From positions 1-41,723 of the forward strand of contig CAINVO010000037.1 of NCBI GenBank assembly GCA_903854195.1: DNA of 41,723 nt, given 5' to 3'. The notes below the pieces were generated by a model that searched no databases, was not told the DNA's origin, and was given only the letters and a program-made list of their open reading frames with translations. Source of the DNA: an uncultured bacterium (GTDB lineage: Bacteria; Patescibacteriota; Minisyncoccia; Phycocordibacterales; CAINVO01). Positions 19,758 through 28,087 of the stretch are shown here, piece by piece (position 1 is the stretch's first letter; each line of letters opens with the position of its first letter). A program made the position numbers and the translations under genes.

Positions 19758-21704
19758 TTATTTTGTAACTCTTCCATCTCCATAGTTGTATGCGGGGTCT
19801 GTTGCGAAAGTTGAATCCAAAGCTTGACCAACATTTTGAACTACTGAACTTGTATAGCTATCCGTTCCAGAAAGCGTTGGGGCCCCAAGGATTTCTGGGG
19901 ATGATTCTAGCTGACTTACACTCGGTAAAAATGATACTTGAAAATAAGCTTCTGGGGCTGCACTAGAATACCCTGCCCCTGCAGCCAGAGTCCCAACATT
20001 CCAAATTACTTGGTGTTTTTGTTGATCATATTTTACATCTGCACCAGCAGGACTGACCTTTCCTAGCCATCCAACATAGTTAGGTAGGCTTGCTGAAACT
20101 GTGGCTCCGTTTACTGTATTAAATGAATTGCTTGCTGTCCAGATGATAGTATATGTTGTGTTTTGGTCAACAACAGGAGGAATTGGCCCTGTATTTATAA
20201 AAGGCCCTACAGTATGCACTGCTCGGGAAGTAATGTGTGGGGCCGTTGCAATCCTAATAGTTTTTGAAACTGTAGAATTTATATCTTCTACAACATTTCT
20301 GTCCCCTAAACGTCTACCACTCACACTAGCATCGAGGTTGATTGATGGCTTTCTAAAATAAGCATTATTTTCAACTGATGATTGTAATGACGCAAGGGTG
20401 AATTGTAATTTACCACCAGCGTGTGGGGCAATAGATGCAAGTTCTGGAACGGTCGTTTTGTCCCAAGTCATAGTATTATCACTTGAACTAAAGAATCCTT
20501 GTTCGACCAAGATGTTTTTTGTATCAAGAATTTTTCCTGCAAGCTTTATTTTTATTGACGCGTCAGTAACAGGAACATTTAGATTGTTTTGCCAAGAAAC
20601 CTCCCCTCTCACCGCATCTCCACCCTGAGCTGTAAAAACGGAAGAATTATCATCATTCAACAAAATATCTACCCCGAGAAAAGGCTGCTTGATTGCAAGT
20701 GGTTGTGTAAGGTTGGCAATAATAGCATTTATAGCAGTTGGATTATCCTGATCAGCAAGTCCCAATGAAAAATGGAAATCTCTTTCTTCTCCATCTTGAC
20801 CTGTCATTCTACCCACGACAATAATGTGTCTATCTGTACCTGGTGAAATATCACCAATGTTCCAGGCTGTATTGTCTGGTGAGGCAGGATCTGGATTTGA
20901 ACTTTCAAAAGAAAAACCAAAAGGATACTCAGCTTTTAATAAAACATTCTTAACGATACTGGTTGAATTTGATTTTACATGAACATCAAACTGCACATCT
21001 TGGTTTGAAACTGTTTCTTTGACTGAATCTACTGTTATAGAAATAGGAGCTGTTCCAATAAAAACAGGGTAATCTTTATTCTTAACAAAAATTGATGCTG
21101 ATCCTGGAATGCGATATTCCAAAGATACTTTTATATTTTGCTGGCTATTTTCCTGACCAAAAAGAACTGGGTCTATAGAAACATGACTAGACTTTCCTGT
21201 TGGGAGTGTCCCGACAGGAATACGCTCTGTGATAAGTGGTGTGACCTGATCACTTGCAAGACGGGTGCTTTCTGGATATGTCACAACAAGATCTGAAAGT
21301 AGAAGATCTGTAGGGTTATTGTTTGTTATCTGGATATCAACAGGGAACGCCTCCCCCGCTGGAGTTGAGACAGATCCTTGCATTGTTATATCTATATTGT
21401 TTGGAGAGACTACATTTGTCCCTCTTACAAAAACTGCGATAGCAATACCGGCAGCAACAAGAAAAAAGACAAGGGCAAAAAGTAAAACTTTTTTAAAAAT
21501 AGGAGTGTAAGTTTCTGCTGTATCTTCGTGAAGATCACCTTGATTTTCATTTTGCCAATCGCTTGGAGTATTTATCTTTTGATCATGCAGTACTTTACGC
21601 CGATAACTAGTTGGTTGAAAATTCTTAGAATAAAGTTGGGACTTTAGTTCATCGATATGATCATTACTATCTTGTGAATCCTTAGGATTTGGTGAAAAAC
21701 TCAT
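19758..21704 (-). CDS. Membrane-anchored protein with repeated beta-sandwich (DUF11/Ig-like) domains
   Basis: Single TM segment (VLLFALVFFLVAAGIAIAVFV) then large predicted extracellular beta-rich region. Confidence 0.7.
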   Translation of the reverse strand: MSFSPNPKDSQDSNDHIDELKSQLYSKNFQPTSYRRKVLHDQKINTPSDWQNENQGDLHEDTAETYTPIFKKVLLFALVFFLVAAGIAIAVFVRGTNVVSPNNIDITMQGSVSTPAGEAFPVDIQITNNNPTDLLLSDLVVTYPESTRLASDQVTPLITERIPVGTLPTGKSSHVSIDPVLFGQENSQQNIKVSLEYRIPGSASIFVKNKDYPVFIGTAPISITVDSVKETVSNQDVQFDVHVKSNSTSIVKNVLLKAEYPFGFSFESSNPDPASPDNTAWNIGDISPGTDRHIIVVGRMTGQDGEERDFHFSLGLADQDNPTAINAIIANLTQPLAIKQPFLGVDILLNDDNSSVFTAQGGDAVRGEVSWQNNLNVPVTDASIKIKLAGKILDTKNILVEQGFFSSSDNTMTWDKTTVPELASIAPHAGGKLQFTLASLQSSVENNAYFRKPSINLDASVSGRRLGDRNVVEDINSTVSKTIRIATAPHITSRAVHTVGPFINTGPIPPVVDQNTTYTIIWTASNSFNTVNGATVSASLPNYVGWLGKVSPAGADVKYDQQKHQVIWNVGTLAAGAGYSSAAPEAYFQVSFLPSVSQLESSPEILGAPTLSGTDSYTSSVVQNVGQALDSTFATDPAYNYGDGRVTK

Positions 21705-21746
21705 AGGAAAATTATATCATAAATGACAAGAATGGCCCCAAATTAA

Positions 21747-22369
21747 CTATAACTGACTTTCTTTGAGTGAATTATTAACTGTCTGTATAGCTTCAAGACG
21801 TAAAGGCAAAAAATCATCTAAAAATTTCCTATCCCATTCTTTTGGTTCACAAGAGATAAAACCTGCAAATTTTCCAGTATTTGTAAAATACCCAAGTAAC
21901 AATAAAACTCTCATGACACCTAGAATTTCTATAGATTTTAAATCATCATTGTTAATATCGCCAACATTATTTTCAAAATCACTAGCGTTTGATAGGCTAT
22001 TTTTTTGATAAATAAAATAAAACTCAAAACAAAATCAAAAAGATCCGCATTTTTCTCTTCCCCAGCAAGCAGTCTATCAAGTAAAGAAAATATTCTCGCA
22101 ACAACGCTAAAATTTTCAATTTTAGAAATGTCATCTATTTTCCCAGCGCTTGTAATACGCCAGACTTCTCTACCCCTAACCAAAGAAAGATGAACTAAGG
22201 AAAAGTCCTGCAGAGAATAGCGGAGCTTTGATTTTAACAATCTCACACCTTGTGCGGAGGCCCCTATCAAACCTAAGTCTTTGGTAAAAATGGTGAAAAA
22301 CCTATTTGCATCTTTGGCTTCGCGTCCTTTTAAAATAAAACCATCGGTTTGATATATATGATGTGACAT
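21747..22369 (-). CDS. recO: DNA repair protein RecO, reading frame interrupted by -1 frameshift at A7 (22000-22006)
   Basis: N-terminal part YQTDGFILKGREAKDANRFFTIFTKDLGLIGASAQGVRLLKSKLRYSLQDFSLVHLSLVRGREVWRIT is RecO OB-like; after the A7 run the -1 frame stays open for SLSNASDFENNVGDINNDDLKSIEILGVMRVLLLLGYFTNTGKFAGFISCEPKEWDRKFLDDFLPLRLEAIQTVNNSLKESQL*. Confidence 0.8.
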
Positions 22370-22372
22370 AAA

Positions 22373-25300
22373 CTAAATCTCAACTTTGACTCCCGTCTCT
22401 GTAGAATCCACCACAGTCTCAATATTTTTAACAAGCGTTGGTTTCTTTATAACTAATTCATACTTTTTTATTAGTGAAATATTTTTTTCTGAACTAGTAA
22501 GTTTTAGGGTTAAGACGACATCACTTGGAGTCAAACCCTTTTCTTTTCTAGCGTCTTGAATTGCGCGGATAAGATCTCTAACGTCTCCCTCTTCCTGAAG
22601 TTCTGAAGTGATTTCTGTATTTAAAATAACGTCTTCGCCAAGATTTTCATTCACTGTTATTTTCTTTACATTTACCTCATCTCGAATCAAATCCAAAAAC
22701 TCTGGCTTATCCCCTATTCCCTGCATGTGCGTACGAACTGAAAGTTCAGATAATGGTTGTCTAATTTTTATACCAGAAGAAGATCTTGCTTCAAGGCCTA
22801 ATGTCACTAATTCTCTTGTTGTTCTCATATTTTCCAAAAGTTCTTTTTGTTCACTGCTTAACTCAAAGGAAATTGTGGCGGTTGAATCTTTCTCATTTAC
22901 GGGCCAATCACAAAGGTGCACACTAAGAGGACCTATTTCAAGACTTGGGTTATTTAGAATTTCTGTATCAGAAATTTTTACTTTTTGATAAATATCATCT
23001 GCCAAAAATGGCATGATTGGTGCAATCAATTTTGCAAAGTTTTCCAATACAAATCTAAGAGTCGCAATTGCAAATTTTTTATCAGCTAGGTCGGAAGACG
23101 ATAAATCTGCTTCATTTCCATCAAGAGCAACCTTTAATCTATCTCTAGAACGTCGCAAATACCATGTGGACAAATCATCAATAAAATCAGCAATTGGTCT
23201 AGTTGCCTTATCTATTTCGTAAGCATCAAGAGATTTAGTCATAATCTGACCAACTTCTGACATACGGGCAATAATCCATCTATCTAAAACATGAGGAGAA
23301 TCAGATGAAGACATTGATCCATCCTTATATAAATCGTAGAAAGAAACTACATTATCTAAGCGTTGAATATTTTTCTTAAGAACCTCGTCAGTACCTTTTG
23401 TTGAAAATGAAATATCTTCAGCACGGACCGCTGGAGATGACATGAAAAAATATCGAAGGGCATCTGCACCAAACTTATTAACCGTCTCCATTAAATCTGG
23501 ATAATTTTTTAAGCGTTTTGACATTTTCTGACCATCCTCAGCAAGAACGGTACCGTTCACAACAACATTTTCGTAAGGAGATTTTCCAAACAAAGCAACT
23601 CCTAAAACAAGTAGTGAATAAAACCATCCTCGAGTTTGGTCTTGTCCTTCTGCAATAAAATCAGCTGGAAAAAAACTACTCTCATCTGACAGAAACTCAT
23701 TTTCGGATGACCCCTTCTCTTCAGAAAAAGGATAGTGTGCCTGAGCAAAAGGCATTGAGCCTGAGTCATACCATGTATCAAAAACATCTGGTATTCTTTT
23801 CATTGTTTTACCGGTGGCAGATTTAAAAACAACCTCATCTATAAAGGGTCTGTGAAAATCTAATTCGTAATTTTTGTTATGTGGAATAAAAGCAAAATCC
23901 AAGCCTGACCATGAAGCGGGATGTAAAAACTCGTGTCGCTCATTCCAGTATTTTATAGTTCTTGTTTTTGTTGCCCCGTCTGCAACAGCTAGACATATTT
24001 TTGCTGGACCATCATGAGTAATCACGAGGATGTTTTTACCTTCATATTTTGAATCTATGTCATATAAAAATTCTCCAACACGTTTTCGGATATCCATCAT
24101 GCACTCTCCGTTTGGTAGGCTTACATCCGCATGATTATCAAAAGAATTTCTGAAAAAACTTCTATACTCCTCATATGACTTACCTTCAAGATCTCCGAAA
24201 CCCAACTCTCTTATACGATCATCAATAATAATTTCATCACTATAACCAATAGTATCCGCGACCAATCTTGCAGTCTCTTGAGTACGAATAAGGGGTGATG
24301 CAATAATCAAATCTATATTTCTCTCCTTGAGGTCATTTGCTTTTTCTATTACTGAGGCTTTCCCCTTCTCCGTTAGATGGTAAGGTGCATTCACATCAGA
24401 AATCATAATATTTTTAACATTATGTTCTGCTTCTCCGTGTCTCATTACCACATATCTGTTGCGTCGAGTTTTTTCTTTTATTTCTTCAAGTGAACCTAGA
24501 ACCTCTATTTCTTTTTTGTCTTCTTCATCTACACTGGCAACACTGACAGTTTTTTTATTAAGACCAGTTTCACTTTGCCAAATTGGAAGTGGAGCACCCC
24601 AATATCTACCTCGAGAAATAGACCAATCTCTAGCATTTTCTAACCACTTTCCAAAACGTCCCTCTCCGACATTTTTTGGACTCCAGTTTACGGACTTATT
24701 AGCATCAAGGAGTTTGTCTTTAAAAGTAGACACCGCAACAAACCATGAAGTTGTTGCATAGTTAAGTAGAGGTGTATCGCACCTCCAACAATGTGGGTAA
24801 GAATGGATTATTTTTTCCTTTGCAAAAAGATACCCATTGTGTGCCAACCATTTGATGATTTCAATATCAGCTTTTTGATGATCGTCTTTTGGCTTTACAA
24901 GCCCCCCAGCAAAATCTGTAACTTCCTTCTTAAATCTTCCATCGCCACTGACATGTTGAATAAACGGCAAGTTTTCCTTTTGAGCCAAAAGAAGATCGTC
25001 CTCTCCAAAAGCTGGTGCGATGTGAACAACCCCAGTACCATCTTCAGTTGTAACAAAATCTCCTGCACAAATTTTCCAACCTGCACCATTTTCCAAAGTT
25101 TTACCGGCTGGGTTTTTAAGCTCTCCATCTGATGCTGCTTTTTTGTAATATTCAAAAACAGGCTTATAGTATTTTCCAACTAAGTCCGATCCTTTTATTT
25201 CACCAACAACATCAAAGTCATTTTTTGTACTTGTTTTCAGAGCTTCTAATCTGCTTTTTGCAAAAATATATTTTTCATTTTCTAAACCTTTTACGTTTGT

Positions 25301-26122
25301 TATCAAATATTCAATTTCTGGATTAATTGCTAGCGCAACATTTCCAGGAAGTGTCCACGGGGTCGTAGTCCAAGCTAACATATAAGTTTTTTCAGATTCT
25401 TTTGGATTCCCTACTCCATGATTACCATCTAATTCAAATTTAACAAAAACAGAAATATCTGTGATGTCTTTATAGTTTTGGCTTATTTCAAAATTGGAAA
25501 GAGTCGTCTCACAACGTGGACAAATGTGCATTGATTTAAAACCTTCATAAACCAAGCCTTTGTCATAAAGTTTTTTGAAGGACCAGATTACAGACTCAGT
25601 GAAAGACGGATTCATAGTACGATAATCATTATCCATATCCACAAAGCGCCCAAGGCGAGGGATTATTTTTTTCCACTCGTCTGCATAACGAAGAACGTTC
25701 GCCCGCGCGACATCATTAAACTTTTCAATACCATATTCCTCGATAGCAACTTTACCATTAAGACCGAGTTCCTTTTCAACTAGATTTTCTATAGGTAGAC
25801 CGTGGCAATCCCAACCCCAACGACGTGGAACAAAATATCCGCGCATAGTTTTGTAACGAGGAATAACATCCTTCATAGTTGTTGGAAGAATATGCCCAAA
25901 ATGTGGTAGGCCTGTAGCAAAAGGAGGGCCATCATAAAAAACAAAGGGTTCAGCTGAGGATCGTAGCTCTAATGTTTTTTTGAAAATATCGTTTTCCTCC
26001 CAGAAAGCGAGGATTTTTTCTTCACGCAAAGCAGCTGGACTTTTTACCGATGCTTGTGTGGCATTCTCACTTATTTTTGATATTTCCTTGGCGTTTTCTT
26101 TATTTTCAGTTTTTTGTGACAT
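22373..26122 (-). CDS. ileS: Isoleucyl-tRNA synthetase containing an inserted histidine phosphatase domain
   Basis: PPFATGLPHFGHILPTTMKDVIPRY, WGWDCHGLPIE, GQDQTRGWFYSLLVLG, GQKMSKRLKNYPD; insertion carries VMRHGEAEHN and ITHDGP. Confidence 0.97.
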   Translation of the reverse strand: MSQKTENKENAKEISKISENATQASVKSPAALREEKILAFWEENDIFKKTLELRSSAEPFVFYDGPPFATGLPHFGHILPTTMKDVIPRYKTMRGYFVPRRWGWDCHGLPIENLVEKELGLNGKVAIEEYGIEKFNDVARANVLRYADEWKKIIPRLGRFVDMDNDYRTMNPSFTESVIWSFKKLYDKGLVYEGFKSMHICPRCETTLSNFEISQNYKDITDISVFVKFELDGNHGVGNPKESEKTYMLAWTTTPWTLPGNVALAINPEIEYLITNVKGLENEKYIFAKSRLEALKTSTKNDFDVVGEIKGSDLVGKYYKPVFEYYKKAASDGELKNPAGKTLENGAGWKICAGDFVTTEDGTGVVHIAPAFGEDDLLLAQKENLPFIQHVSGDGRFKKEVTDFAGGLVKPKDDHQKADIEIIKWLAHNGYLFAKEKIIHSYPHCWRCDTPLLNYATTSWFVAVSTFKDKLLDANKSVNWSPKNVGEGRFGKWLENARDWSISRGRYWGAPLPIWQSETGLNKKTVSVASVDEEDKKEIEVLGSLEEIKEKTRRNRYVVMRHGEAEHNVKNIMISDVNAPYHLTEKGKASVIEKANDLKERNIDLIIASPLIRTQETARLVADTIGYSDEIIIDDRIRELGFGDLEGKSYEEYRSFFRNSFDNHADVSLPNGECMMDIRKRVGEFLYDIDSKYEGKNILVITHDGPAKICLAVADGATKTRTIKYWNERHEFLHPASWSGLDFAFIPHNKNYELDFHRPFIDEVVFKSATGKTMKRIPDVFDTWYDSGSMPFAQAHYPFSEEKGSSENEFLSDESSFFPADFIAEGQDQTRGWFYSLLVLGVALFGKSPYENVVVNGTVLAEDGQKMSKRLKNYPDLMETVNKFGADALRYFFMSSPAVRAEDISFSTKGTDEVLKKNIQRLDNVVSFYDLYKDGSMSSSDSPHVLDRWIIARMSEVGQIMTKSLDAYEIDKATRPIADFIDDLSTWYLRRSRDRLKVALDGNEADLSSSDLADKKFAIATLRFVLENFAKLIAPIMPFLADDIYQKVKISDTEILNNPSLEIGPLSVHLCDWPVNEKDSTATISFELSSEQKELLENMRTTRELVTLGLEARSSSGIKIRQPLSELSVRTHMQGIGDKPEFLDLIRDEVNVKKITVNENLGEDVILNTEITSELQEEGDVRDLIRAIQDARKEKGLTPSDVVLTLKLTSSEKNISLIKKYELVIKKPTLVKNIETVVDSTETGVKVEI
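23861..24466 (-). other. Histidine phosphatase (phosphoglycerate mutase-like) domain inserted in IleRS
   Basis: RYVVMRHGEAEHN, IIASPLIRTQETARLVAD, IRELGFGDLEGKSYEEY, LPNGECMMDIRKRV, ILVITHDGPAKI. Confidence 0.92.
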
Positions 26123-26248: not shown

Positions 26249-28087
26249 CTACATCTTGTCAGGAGCAGAGATACCCAGAATCCATAGACCATTTTTCATA
26301 GTAGAGGCGAACGCTCTAACAACATCCAAACGATAATCCTTCAAAGCCCCAGCATTGAGTATGGGAGTTGAAGCATAAAAACTATTAAAGTCAGAAGCTA
26401 TCTCCAAAAGAAACTGCGCCAGAGTGTGTGGAGCTTTGTTTTCACATGACTGCTGAACAATTTCTGAAAAACGGTACAATTTTCTTTCAAGCTTGGATAC
26501 TTTTTCTACAATATCTTTAATAACACTATCCTTCTCTGAATTATCTGATTTATTTTCTTCGTTCTCATCACCGAGACCATCCCCCATCTCTAATTTAGAT
26601 TTTTCTAGAATAGAAACAGCTCTTACATGTGAGTATTGTAGATACGGTCCTGAGTCACCCTCAAATGAAAGTGACTTTTCTTTATCAAAAATAATATCCT
26701 TACCAACAGACTGTTTCAATATAGTGTATTTAATAGCAGCAACCCCAACTTCCGAAGCAATCATATGTTTATCCTCCTCAGAAATACCAGGGCGATCACT
26801 AACTTTTTCTAAAGCAGACTGAATCATGTCAGCCAACAATGACTCCCCAGTAACAACATCTCCAGTACGTGAAGACATTTTTTGAGATTTTTTACCATCG
26901 GAGTTTGGTCCCACAGAAAGACGAAGCATCCCATGAGAAAGATGTTCAGATTTTTTAGCAATTTCTGGAAAAATAAAAGACATGGCTTTAAAGATTACTT
27001 TAAAGTAATCGTTCTGTTCATTTGCAGTAACTGTAATACCCAGGTCATATGGAAAGCTTTCATATTTTATTTTAGCGAGTCCAAGCTCTTTGCCTTCATA
27101 GGTAGTCAGACCCTCACTTGTCAAAAATACACGTGTGTGTAATTCACTTTTAGCTTCTGAAAAAATAACAGCGCCATCACTTTTTTCAAAAAGAGCTGGG
27201 GGTACAGCAGAATTTCCTTTTTCATTTGCGAGATGATCTTCAACTATTTTTTTTCCAACAGGAGAACTCTGACTCTCAAAAAAATAATGGTCAAAATTTG
27301 TACCAAGGACTTTGTATATTTCTTCAAAGTGTTCAAGTGACCATTCCCTACCTTTATCATAAATCTCGTTTAACTCATCATCTGAACGTTCGTATATTTT
27401 TTTATTGATTTCCTTAACCTCTATTTCAGCAGTTGGATCTTCTTTTACTTTTTTAGAACCAAGTGCATATGCAGCCCCAAGATAAGCAGTCTTCTCTGAA
27501 AGAGGTGTATCATCTGATGGAATAGCTTTATCCATAAAACGAAAACCCCAAATAGTTAAAGCAACGTGACGGCCAACATCACCTTGGTAACACAATCTTT
27601 TTACATTTGCACCAGAAAAATCATAAAGGCGAGAAAGAGCCTCTCCAATAATGTTTGTCATCAAATGCCCTATATGAAACTGTTTAAATGGATTCGGGTC
27701 AGTATATTCCACAGCAACCATTTTGCCTTCAAAAATCTTGTTTTTACCTAACGAATCTTTTGAATTATTTTCTATAACCTGTTTTATTGAATTAAAGAAA
27801 AAAGAATCATCAAGATAGAAGTTTATAAAACCTGGACCAGCAACTTCTATTTTTAATATTTCTGATGGTTTGTTTTTTTCAATCTCCCCAACAAGTTCCT
27901 CAGCAAACACTTTTGGGTTTTTATTTAATTTTTTAGAAAGAGATAAAGCGATACTTGTAGAAAAATCACCGTTAGACAGATCAGATGGATGCTCCAAATG
28001 AATTTCCAACAAATCAATATCCGCCTCTATTGCTAGGTTTTTTATTGCTGACTTTATTGTAGATTTTATTGTTTCAGATATATTCAT
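26249..28087 (-). CDS. argS: Arginyl-tRNA synthetase
   Basis: VEYTDPNPFKQFHIGHLMTNIIGEALSRL; SSRTGDVVTGESLLADM; YLQYSHVRAVSIL. Confidence 0.97.
   Translation of the reverse strand: MNISETIKSTIKSAIKNLAIEADIDLLEIHLEHPSDLSNGDFSTSIALSLSKKLNKNPKVFAEELVGEIEKNKPSEILKIEVAGPGFINFYLDDSFFFNSIKQVIENNSKDSLGKNKIFEGKMVAVEYTDPNPFKQFHIGHLMTNIIGEALSRLYDFSGANVKRLCYQGDVGRHVALTIWGFRFMDKAIPSDDTPLSEKTAYLGAAYALGSKKVKEDPTAEIEVKEINKKIYERSDDELNEIYDKGREWSLEHFEEIYKVLGTNFDHYFFESQSSPVGKKIVEDHLANEKGNSAVPPALFEKSDGAVIFSEAKSELHTRVFLTSEGLTTYEGKELGLAKIKYESFPYDLGITVTANEQNDYFKVIFKAMSFIFPEIAKKSEHLSHGMLRLSVGPNSDGKKSQKMSSRTGDVVTGESLLADMIQSALEKVSDRPGISEEDKHMIASEVGVAAIKYTILKQSVGKDIIFDKEKSLSFEGDSGPYLQYSHVRAVSILEKSKLEMGDGLGDENEENKSDNSEKDSVIKDIVEKVSKLERKLYRFSEIVQQSCENKAPHTLAQFLLEIASDFNSFYASTPILNAGALKDYRLDVVRAFASTMKNGLWILGISAPDKM

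Follow-up and report, generated by a model that had tools for sequence, protein, structure and literature searches.

Aminoacyl-tRNA synthetases belong to the best-studied enzymes, and to our knowledge the extra domains described in them serve tRNA binding, editing, acetyl transfer or complex formation. The closest solved relatives of the synthetase considered here are type-2 isoleucyl-tRNA synthetases (IleRS), available from S. cerevisiae (8wnd, 7d5c), Priestia megaterium (IleRS2; 8c8u, 8c9d) and T. thermophilus (1ile), and an IleRS equipped with an additional enzyme domain is represented by family model NF040702 (ileS_w_GNAT), in which this domain is an N-acetyltransferase and not a phosphatase. 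Histidine phosphatases (HPs) of branch 1, such as PspA (4ij5), PhoE (1h2e), HFP (9mmh), CobC (6e4b) and Rv2419c (4pz9), are free enzymes of about 190 aa minimal size with an R-H-R-H (plus E) active site. Papers linking IleRS or any aminoacyl-tRNA synthetase with a histidine phosphatase or phosphatase domain did not emerge from a search of the open PMC literature (most subscription journals and bioRxiv lying outside it), and no solved IleRS carrying an HP was found among structure matches. IleRS and HP are both known families; it is their combination, described below, that is new relative to the open literature searched.

The synthetase and the domain within it

The window (the whole stretch of DNA analysed, 41,723 nucleotides from an uncultured bacterium) encodes on the minus strand a type-2-like IleRS with an embedded HP (ileS, 22373..26122, 1249 aa). 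The single open frame proposed in a preliminary description of this locus stands: internal stops are absent, the IleRS profile TIGR00392 matches with E=2e-252 and 840 bits at a curated equivalog cut-off of 621.4, and GC content in the window makes no step across the insert. HFGH and the CP1 editing region lie in the part of IleRS before the insert (24476..26032, minus strand; TIGR00392 positions 9-509), KMSKR and the anticodon-binding domain in the part after it (22727..23872, minus strand; TIGR00392 positions 505-852). The flanking motifs, earlier presumed intact, were all located (HFGH at aa 74-77, TTPWTL at aa 253, KMSKR at aa 866), and the CP1 editing region also holds GTGVVHIAPAFGEDD, as read in the translation. 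The exception models for mupirocin-resistant IleRS, MupA and MupB, gave 630.8 and 670.7 versus a cut-off of 1900, a similarity reflecting the type-2 body only, and with 354 bits versus 1999 the protein is not a member of NF040702. Since no second IleRS exceeds the cut-off in the source genome (814 kb, 94% complete), we infer that the enzyme with the HP must supply Ile-tRNA of the cell; a free HP is also encoded there as a separate gene on another contig. The gene before ileS is argS (26249..28087, minus strand). Downstream of ileS, recO (window 21700-22369, minus strand) is broken into a 143-aa RecO_N frame and a remainder in another frame by a frameshift or sequencing error.

The embedded HP domain occupies aa 553-754, to which the interval 23861..24466 (minus strand) given in the preliminary description corresponds exactly, and its flanks are RYWGAPLPIW (aa 506) and DFHRPFID (aa 755). 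The domain scan proposed earlier found Pfam His_Phos_1 (PF00300) inside the IleRS, at aa 558-721, with E=1e-33 and 116.8 bits versus a gathering cut-off of 21.7. All HP signature elements listed before were recovered on the minus strand by motif and conservation: RHG with catalytic Arg and nucleophile His assigned by homology (R561, H562, G563; 24434..24442), the second phosphate-binding Arg R613 of SPLIRT (24284..24286), the presumed general acid E639 of RELGFG within RELGFGDLEG (24206..24208) and the second active-site His H703 of VITHDGP (24014..24016). The window insert thus has the branch-1 residues R561, H562, R613, E639 and H703 complete. Among IleRS-embedded domains the equivalents of R561, H562, R613 and H703 are each kept in 97/97, and the position of E639 is occupied by E in 93 and by D in 2 of these 97; for ValRS-embedded domains (n=15) the R, H and second R are found in 15/15 and the second His in 14/15. 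The sole clear degenerate among the 112 synthetase-embedded domains is that in the ValRS of genome G103 (L055:2026-4992), with the second catalytic His replaced (TSEII). The insert is present in all 30 closest relatives inspected, where it retains RH[GA] as well as the second Arg and His, and mean pairwise identity among 68 aligned fusions comes to 35% despite invariant catalytic R, H, R and H. A wide spread with degenerate His, named beforehand as an argument against enzymatic function, is therefore only half of what was seen, the spread being wide and the catalytic residues invariant, which rules out a pseudo-domain. The window domain reaches none of the NCBIfam phosphatase equivalog cut-offs (TIGR03162, 85.1 bits versus 162.9; NF045917, 65.4 versus 350; NF038349, 84.4 versus 225), and CobC alpha-ribazole phosphatase, PspA phosphoserine phosphatase and archaeal dPGM are among the assignments so rejected. 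A phosphoglycerate mutase proper was likewise discarded, the insert having minimal phosphatase size and scoring below the dPGM cut-off.

AlphaFold models agree with this assignment. The insert alone, modelled with 82 relatives, is predicted as an HP fold with mean pLDDT of 93.6 and pTM of 0.90, and the fused protein (aa 29-1215) reaches pLDDT of 89.8 and pTM of 0.87. Foldseek gave 4ij6 as the best match of the insert model (E=2e-14, TM 0.78), and the closest solved structures are Hydrogenobacter phosphoserine phosphatase 1, riboflavin-pathway HFP, PhoE and Rv2419c; the branch-1 enzymes listed above share fold, size and active site with the insert at 21-29% identity in structural alignments, but are free proteins. 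The fused model resembles type-2 IleRS along its length (yeast 8wnd and 7d5c, Priestia IleRS2 8c9d, Thermus 1ile), and the type-2 structures have the synthetase fold, HIGH/KMSK motifs and CP1 editing region in common with the window protein at 29-33% identity, but only about 10 residues where it has a 202-aa phosphatase. Alignment to the yeast enzyme is interrupted between residues 487 and 498 at this site, so that the insertion into a normally short loop, suspected before, was confirmed. In insert-free Patescibacteria IleRS the site reads GSxxEL...DLHRPxID with a cysteine pair on either side (two pairs), which places the HP of the family, as judged by sequence comparison, between the halves of a zinc ribbon. 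The alternative wording of the earlier proposal, a zinc-binding loop, is accurate for the family and fails for the window protein itself: the ribbon cysteines are kept on both sides of the insert in most relatives and are gone here. A linker of low confidence ahead of the insert (aa 522-532, 24527..24559, minus strand; pLDDT <50 in the model of the fused protein) is particular to the window protein, most relatives being devoid of it. An assembly chimera is ruled out by identical junctions recurring in dozens of independent genomes. Taken from sequence and model, it is next to certain that the two-enzyme protein is real and consists of a type-2-like IleRS with a complete, catalytic-residue-intact HP of the CobC/PhoE/PspA size class in a surface loop.

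Distribution, insertion sites and descent

Of the 57 same-order genomes in which an IleRS was found, about 53 have the IleRS-HP fusion (count read from search rows), and G022, G029, G054 and G055 lack it. An even draw over the phylum gave 57 fusions in 380 genomes (counted from listed rows), and carriers with established names include Nomurabacteria, Zambryskibacteria, Taylorbacteria, Wolfebacteria, Yanofskybacteria, Jorgensenbacteria, Peregrinibacteria and Peribacteria. IleRS of Microbacterium, Balneola and Brevibacillus from the same match set have no insert. One fusion belongs to a genome labelled Spirochaetia (L123, QYPD01000003.1), which probably is a mis-binned or mis-named Patescibacteria contig.

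HPs also reside in 14 ValRS proteins of the set, most identified as ValRS by NCBIfam, and in the two enzymes taken together HPs sit at about five sites: in the ribbon loop of IleRS, in the second knuckle of the ribbon, in the homologous hairpin that follows IPVWY in ValRS, behind WFESG (IleRS) or DTWFSSG (ValRS), and between KMSKS and NELDRWIL. Peregrinibacteria-type IleRS of about 1450-1550 aa carry two HP domains in tandem, and a 1569-aa IleRS with three HP domains at three different positions was observed in G299:C4 (L048:1676-6382). When 69 evenly drawn genomes were searched with PF00300, all HPs in frames longer than 900 aa proved to lie within IleRS or ValRS, which gives no support to the idea of a mobile HP entering large genes of any kind. 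In the remaining long HP proteins HP is joined end to end with MFS, 2-hydroxyacid dehydrogenase, hydrolase-like and DedA-like partners, all but MFS being named by reading the sequence. Examples are a 614-aa MFS transporter with C-terminal HP in G383 (L080:2185-4026, minus strand), a 459-aa DedA-like membrane protein fused to HP in G331 (L201:1770-3149, minus strand), with similar lengths in G235 and G283, and a 552-aa 2-hydroxyacid dehydrogenase joined with HP in G126 (L200:1685-3343, minus strand), possibly a serine-pathway fusion.

Genomes with unfused IleRS provide a further arrangement. The best free HP homologue adjoins ileS upstream in four of them; in G386, the fifth, it is found upstream at a distance of about 1 kb. 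The spacing is about 14 nt in G403, about 4 nt in G329 and 5 nt in Staskawiczbacteria (JAHFKV010000001.1), where HP overlaps the end of argS, and the two genes overlap by 4 nt in UBA4067 (DFZB01000055.1). The gene before the free HP is argS in G403, G329, G386 and Staskawiczbacteria, giving the order argS-HP-ileS, whose counterpart in the window is argS preceding the fused ileS. These free HPs are close homologues of the insert in the same neighbourhood, but as separate proteins accompanying an IleRS that has no HP and is about 935-965 aa long. They end near a GEVREL-like segment, where inserts also end, so the insert corresponds to a whole HP gene. Adjacency is not a phylum-wide rule: 35 genomes elsewhere in the phylum with insert-free IleRS have no HP abutting ileS, the nearest being that of G126, about 1 kb upstream. 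No HP beside ileS was found for the insert-free IleRS of same-order genomes G022, G029, G054, G055 and G313 either.

The descent of the domain was traced with a quick tree of 92 HP domains with many open forks. The main IleRS inserts group together with four of the five free HPs that neighbour ileS and with some further free ones (95*), and L026, L031, L071, L073, L140 and L142 form another group (98*); the first (97*) and second (95*) tandem domains are placed apart, eight ValRS inserts fall together (96*), and so do two inserts after KMSKS (99*). Such a topology points to several independent captures, and given the open forks no exact number is claimed. On the tree of IleRS bodies 12 changes between fused and unfused states are needed, at least 8 of them forced by starred branches. 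The HP of L026 appears to be a replacement in place: the bodies of L026 and L025 are 65% identical and the HPs 25% identical. Since distances of body and HP correlate over 68 fusions (r=0.47; 0/2000 permutations), inheritance of the domain is vertical in part. The HP of the window and that of the same-genus L005 make the closest pair (0.59), the body of L005 is nearer to L028 (0.65) than to the window (0.56), and the switch occurs at the HP, as expected if HP and IleRS body have recombined separately. As reconstructed from these comparisons, HP has become associated with IleRS, and separately with ValRS, several times in Patescibacteria, the domain being either inserted into the synthetase or encoded immediately upstream of ileS.

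A probable phosphatase beside isoleucine and valine activation

The domain is very probably an active phosphatase (phosphomonoesterase), and a tie of its function to Ile/Val-tRNA synthesis is likely. We propose that, held close to Ile/Val activation, it would dephosphorylate a small soluble molecule which the activating enzymes either produce or are disturbed by; candidates are AMP or another nucleotide set free in activation and editing, phospho-amino acids and nucleotide-type inhibitors. The domain would act by proximity or stoichiometry, kept near by fusion or co-expression, and probably without passing the end of a tRNA along a set route; because HP positions vary and a free HP exists, a small diffusible ligand is favoured over such a route. 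That the substrate is a small molecule rather than tRNA or protein has in our estimate an even chance, and the same evenly balanced expectation applies to the proposal as a whole. Given the frequent promiscuity of HPs, the sequence does not tell which substrate is used. Removal of plain AMP is not fully satisfying, because hosts are confined to IleRS and ValRS, yet AMP is made by every aminoacyl-tRNA synthetase; something special to branched-chain activation (heavy editing traffic, phospho-amino acid, inhibitor, nutrient signal) fits better. A counterpoint to tight coupling comes from those same-order genomes in which IleRS is insert-free and no HP is adjacent, so that coupling must be dispensable.

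Other functions were weighed against the same observations. tRNA is bound by IleRS and ValRS alike, and the loop that holds the insert, which comes after the CP1 region, is present in IleRS structures with bound tRNA, so the synthetase could present tRNA-Ile or tRNA-Val to a phosphatase removing a 3'-, 2'- or cyclic phosphate in the course of repair, maturation or modification, the more so as HPs can act on phosphorylated oligonucleotides, found as substrates of YOR283w and Det1 (PMC2737285). We consider it unlikely, since positions scattered over the synthetase, together with the existence of a free HP, offer no common path from the tRNA end, and HP is found in no synthetase other than IleRS and ValRS. 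The latter restriction to branched-chain synthetases would suit a regulatory device, in which HP would sense or remove a signal (an alarmone, for instance pGpp/ppGpp, or a phosphate carried by the synthetase or by a partner protein) and thereby link Ile/Val charging with the nutrient state in host-dependent cells. A precedent within the superfamily is the protein phosphohistidine phosphatase SixA (PMC7948535), but the minimal HP of the window class is typical of small-molecule phosphatases, and regulation of this kind is improbable to a similar degree.

Alternatively, loops of IleRS and ValRS may simply tolerate the arrival of an HP gene, mobile or duplicated, whose product does an ordinary, unrelated metabolic job. 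Streamlined genomes, separate exchange of HP and body, repeated gain and loss on the IleRS tree and the few end-to-end joins to MFS, 2-hydroxyacid dehydrogenase and DedA-like proteins would be in line with such hitch-hiking, but arbitrary hosts predict HPs in many large enzymes, contrary to the even draw, and tolerance of loops leaves the free gene of argS-HP-ileS unexplained; we regard this as no likelier than the tRNA-end and regulatory functions. It is very improbable that the domain stands in for the zinc ribbon loop as a dimerisation or stabilising module whose catalysis is a relic: the loss of ribbon cysteines in the window protein and the dimers that HPs of its class often form are compatible with a structural role, but catalytic residues stay invariant as the remaining domain diverges, and most relatives keep both the cysteines and the HP.

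Returning to the phosphatase acting on a small compound near Ile/Val activation, we note that exactly two synthetases have captured a catalytic-residue-intact HP, that they did so several times and at several positions, and that HP is in other cases encoded beside ileS; this implies selection for a phosphatase reaction next to Ile/Val activation. Patescibacteria may accordingly run an additional, hitherto undescribed enzymatic step tied to Ile and Val tRNA charging, with HP removing a phosphorylated by-product, a mischarging-related compound, an inhibitor or a signal, a prospect that we hold at slightly less than even. The association concerns a large bacterial radiation, the ultra-small and mostly uncultured Patescibacteria, and the presence of HP inside or beside their essential Ile and Val synthetases suggests that a reaction coupled to protein synthesis has gone unrecognised.
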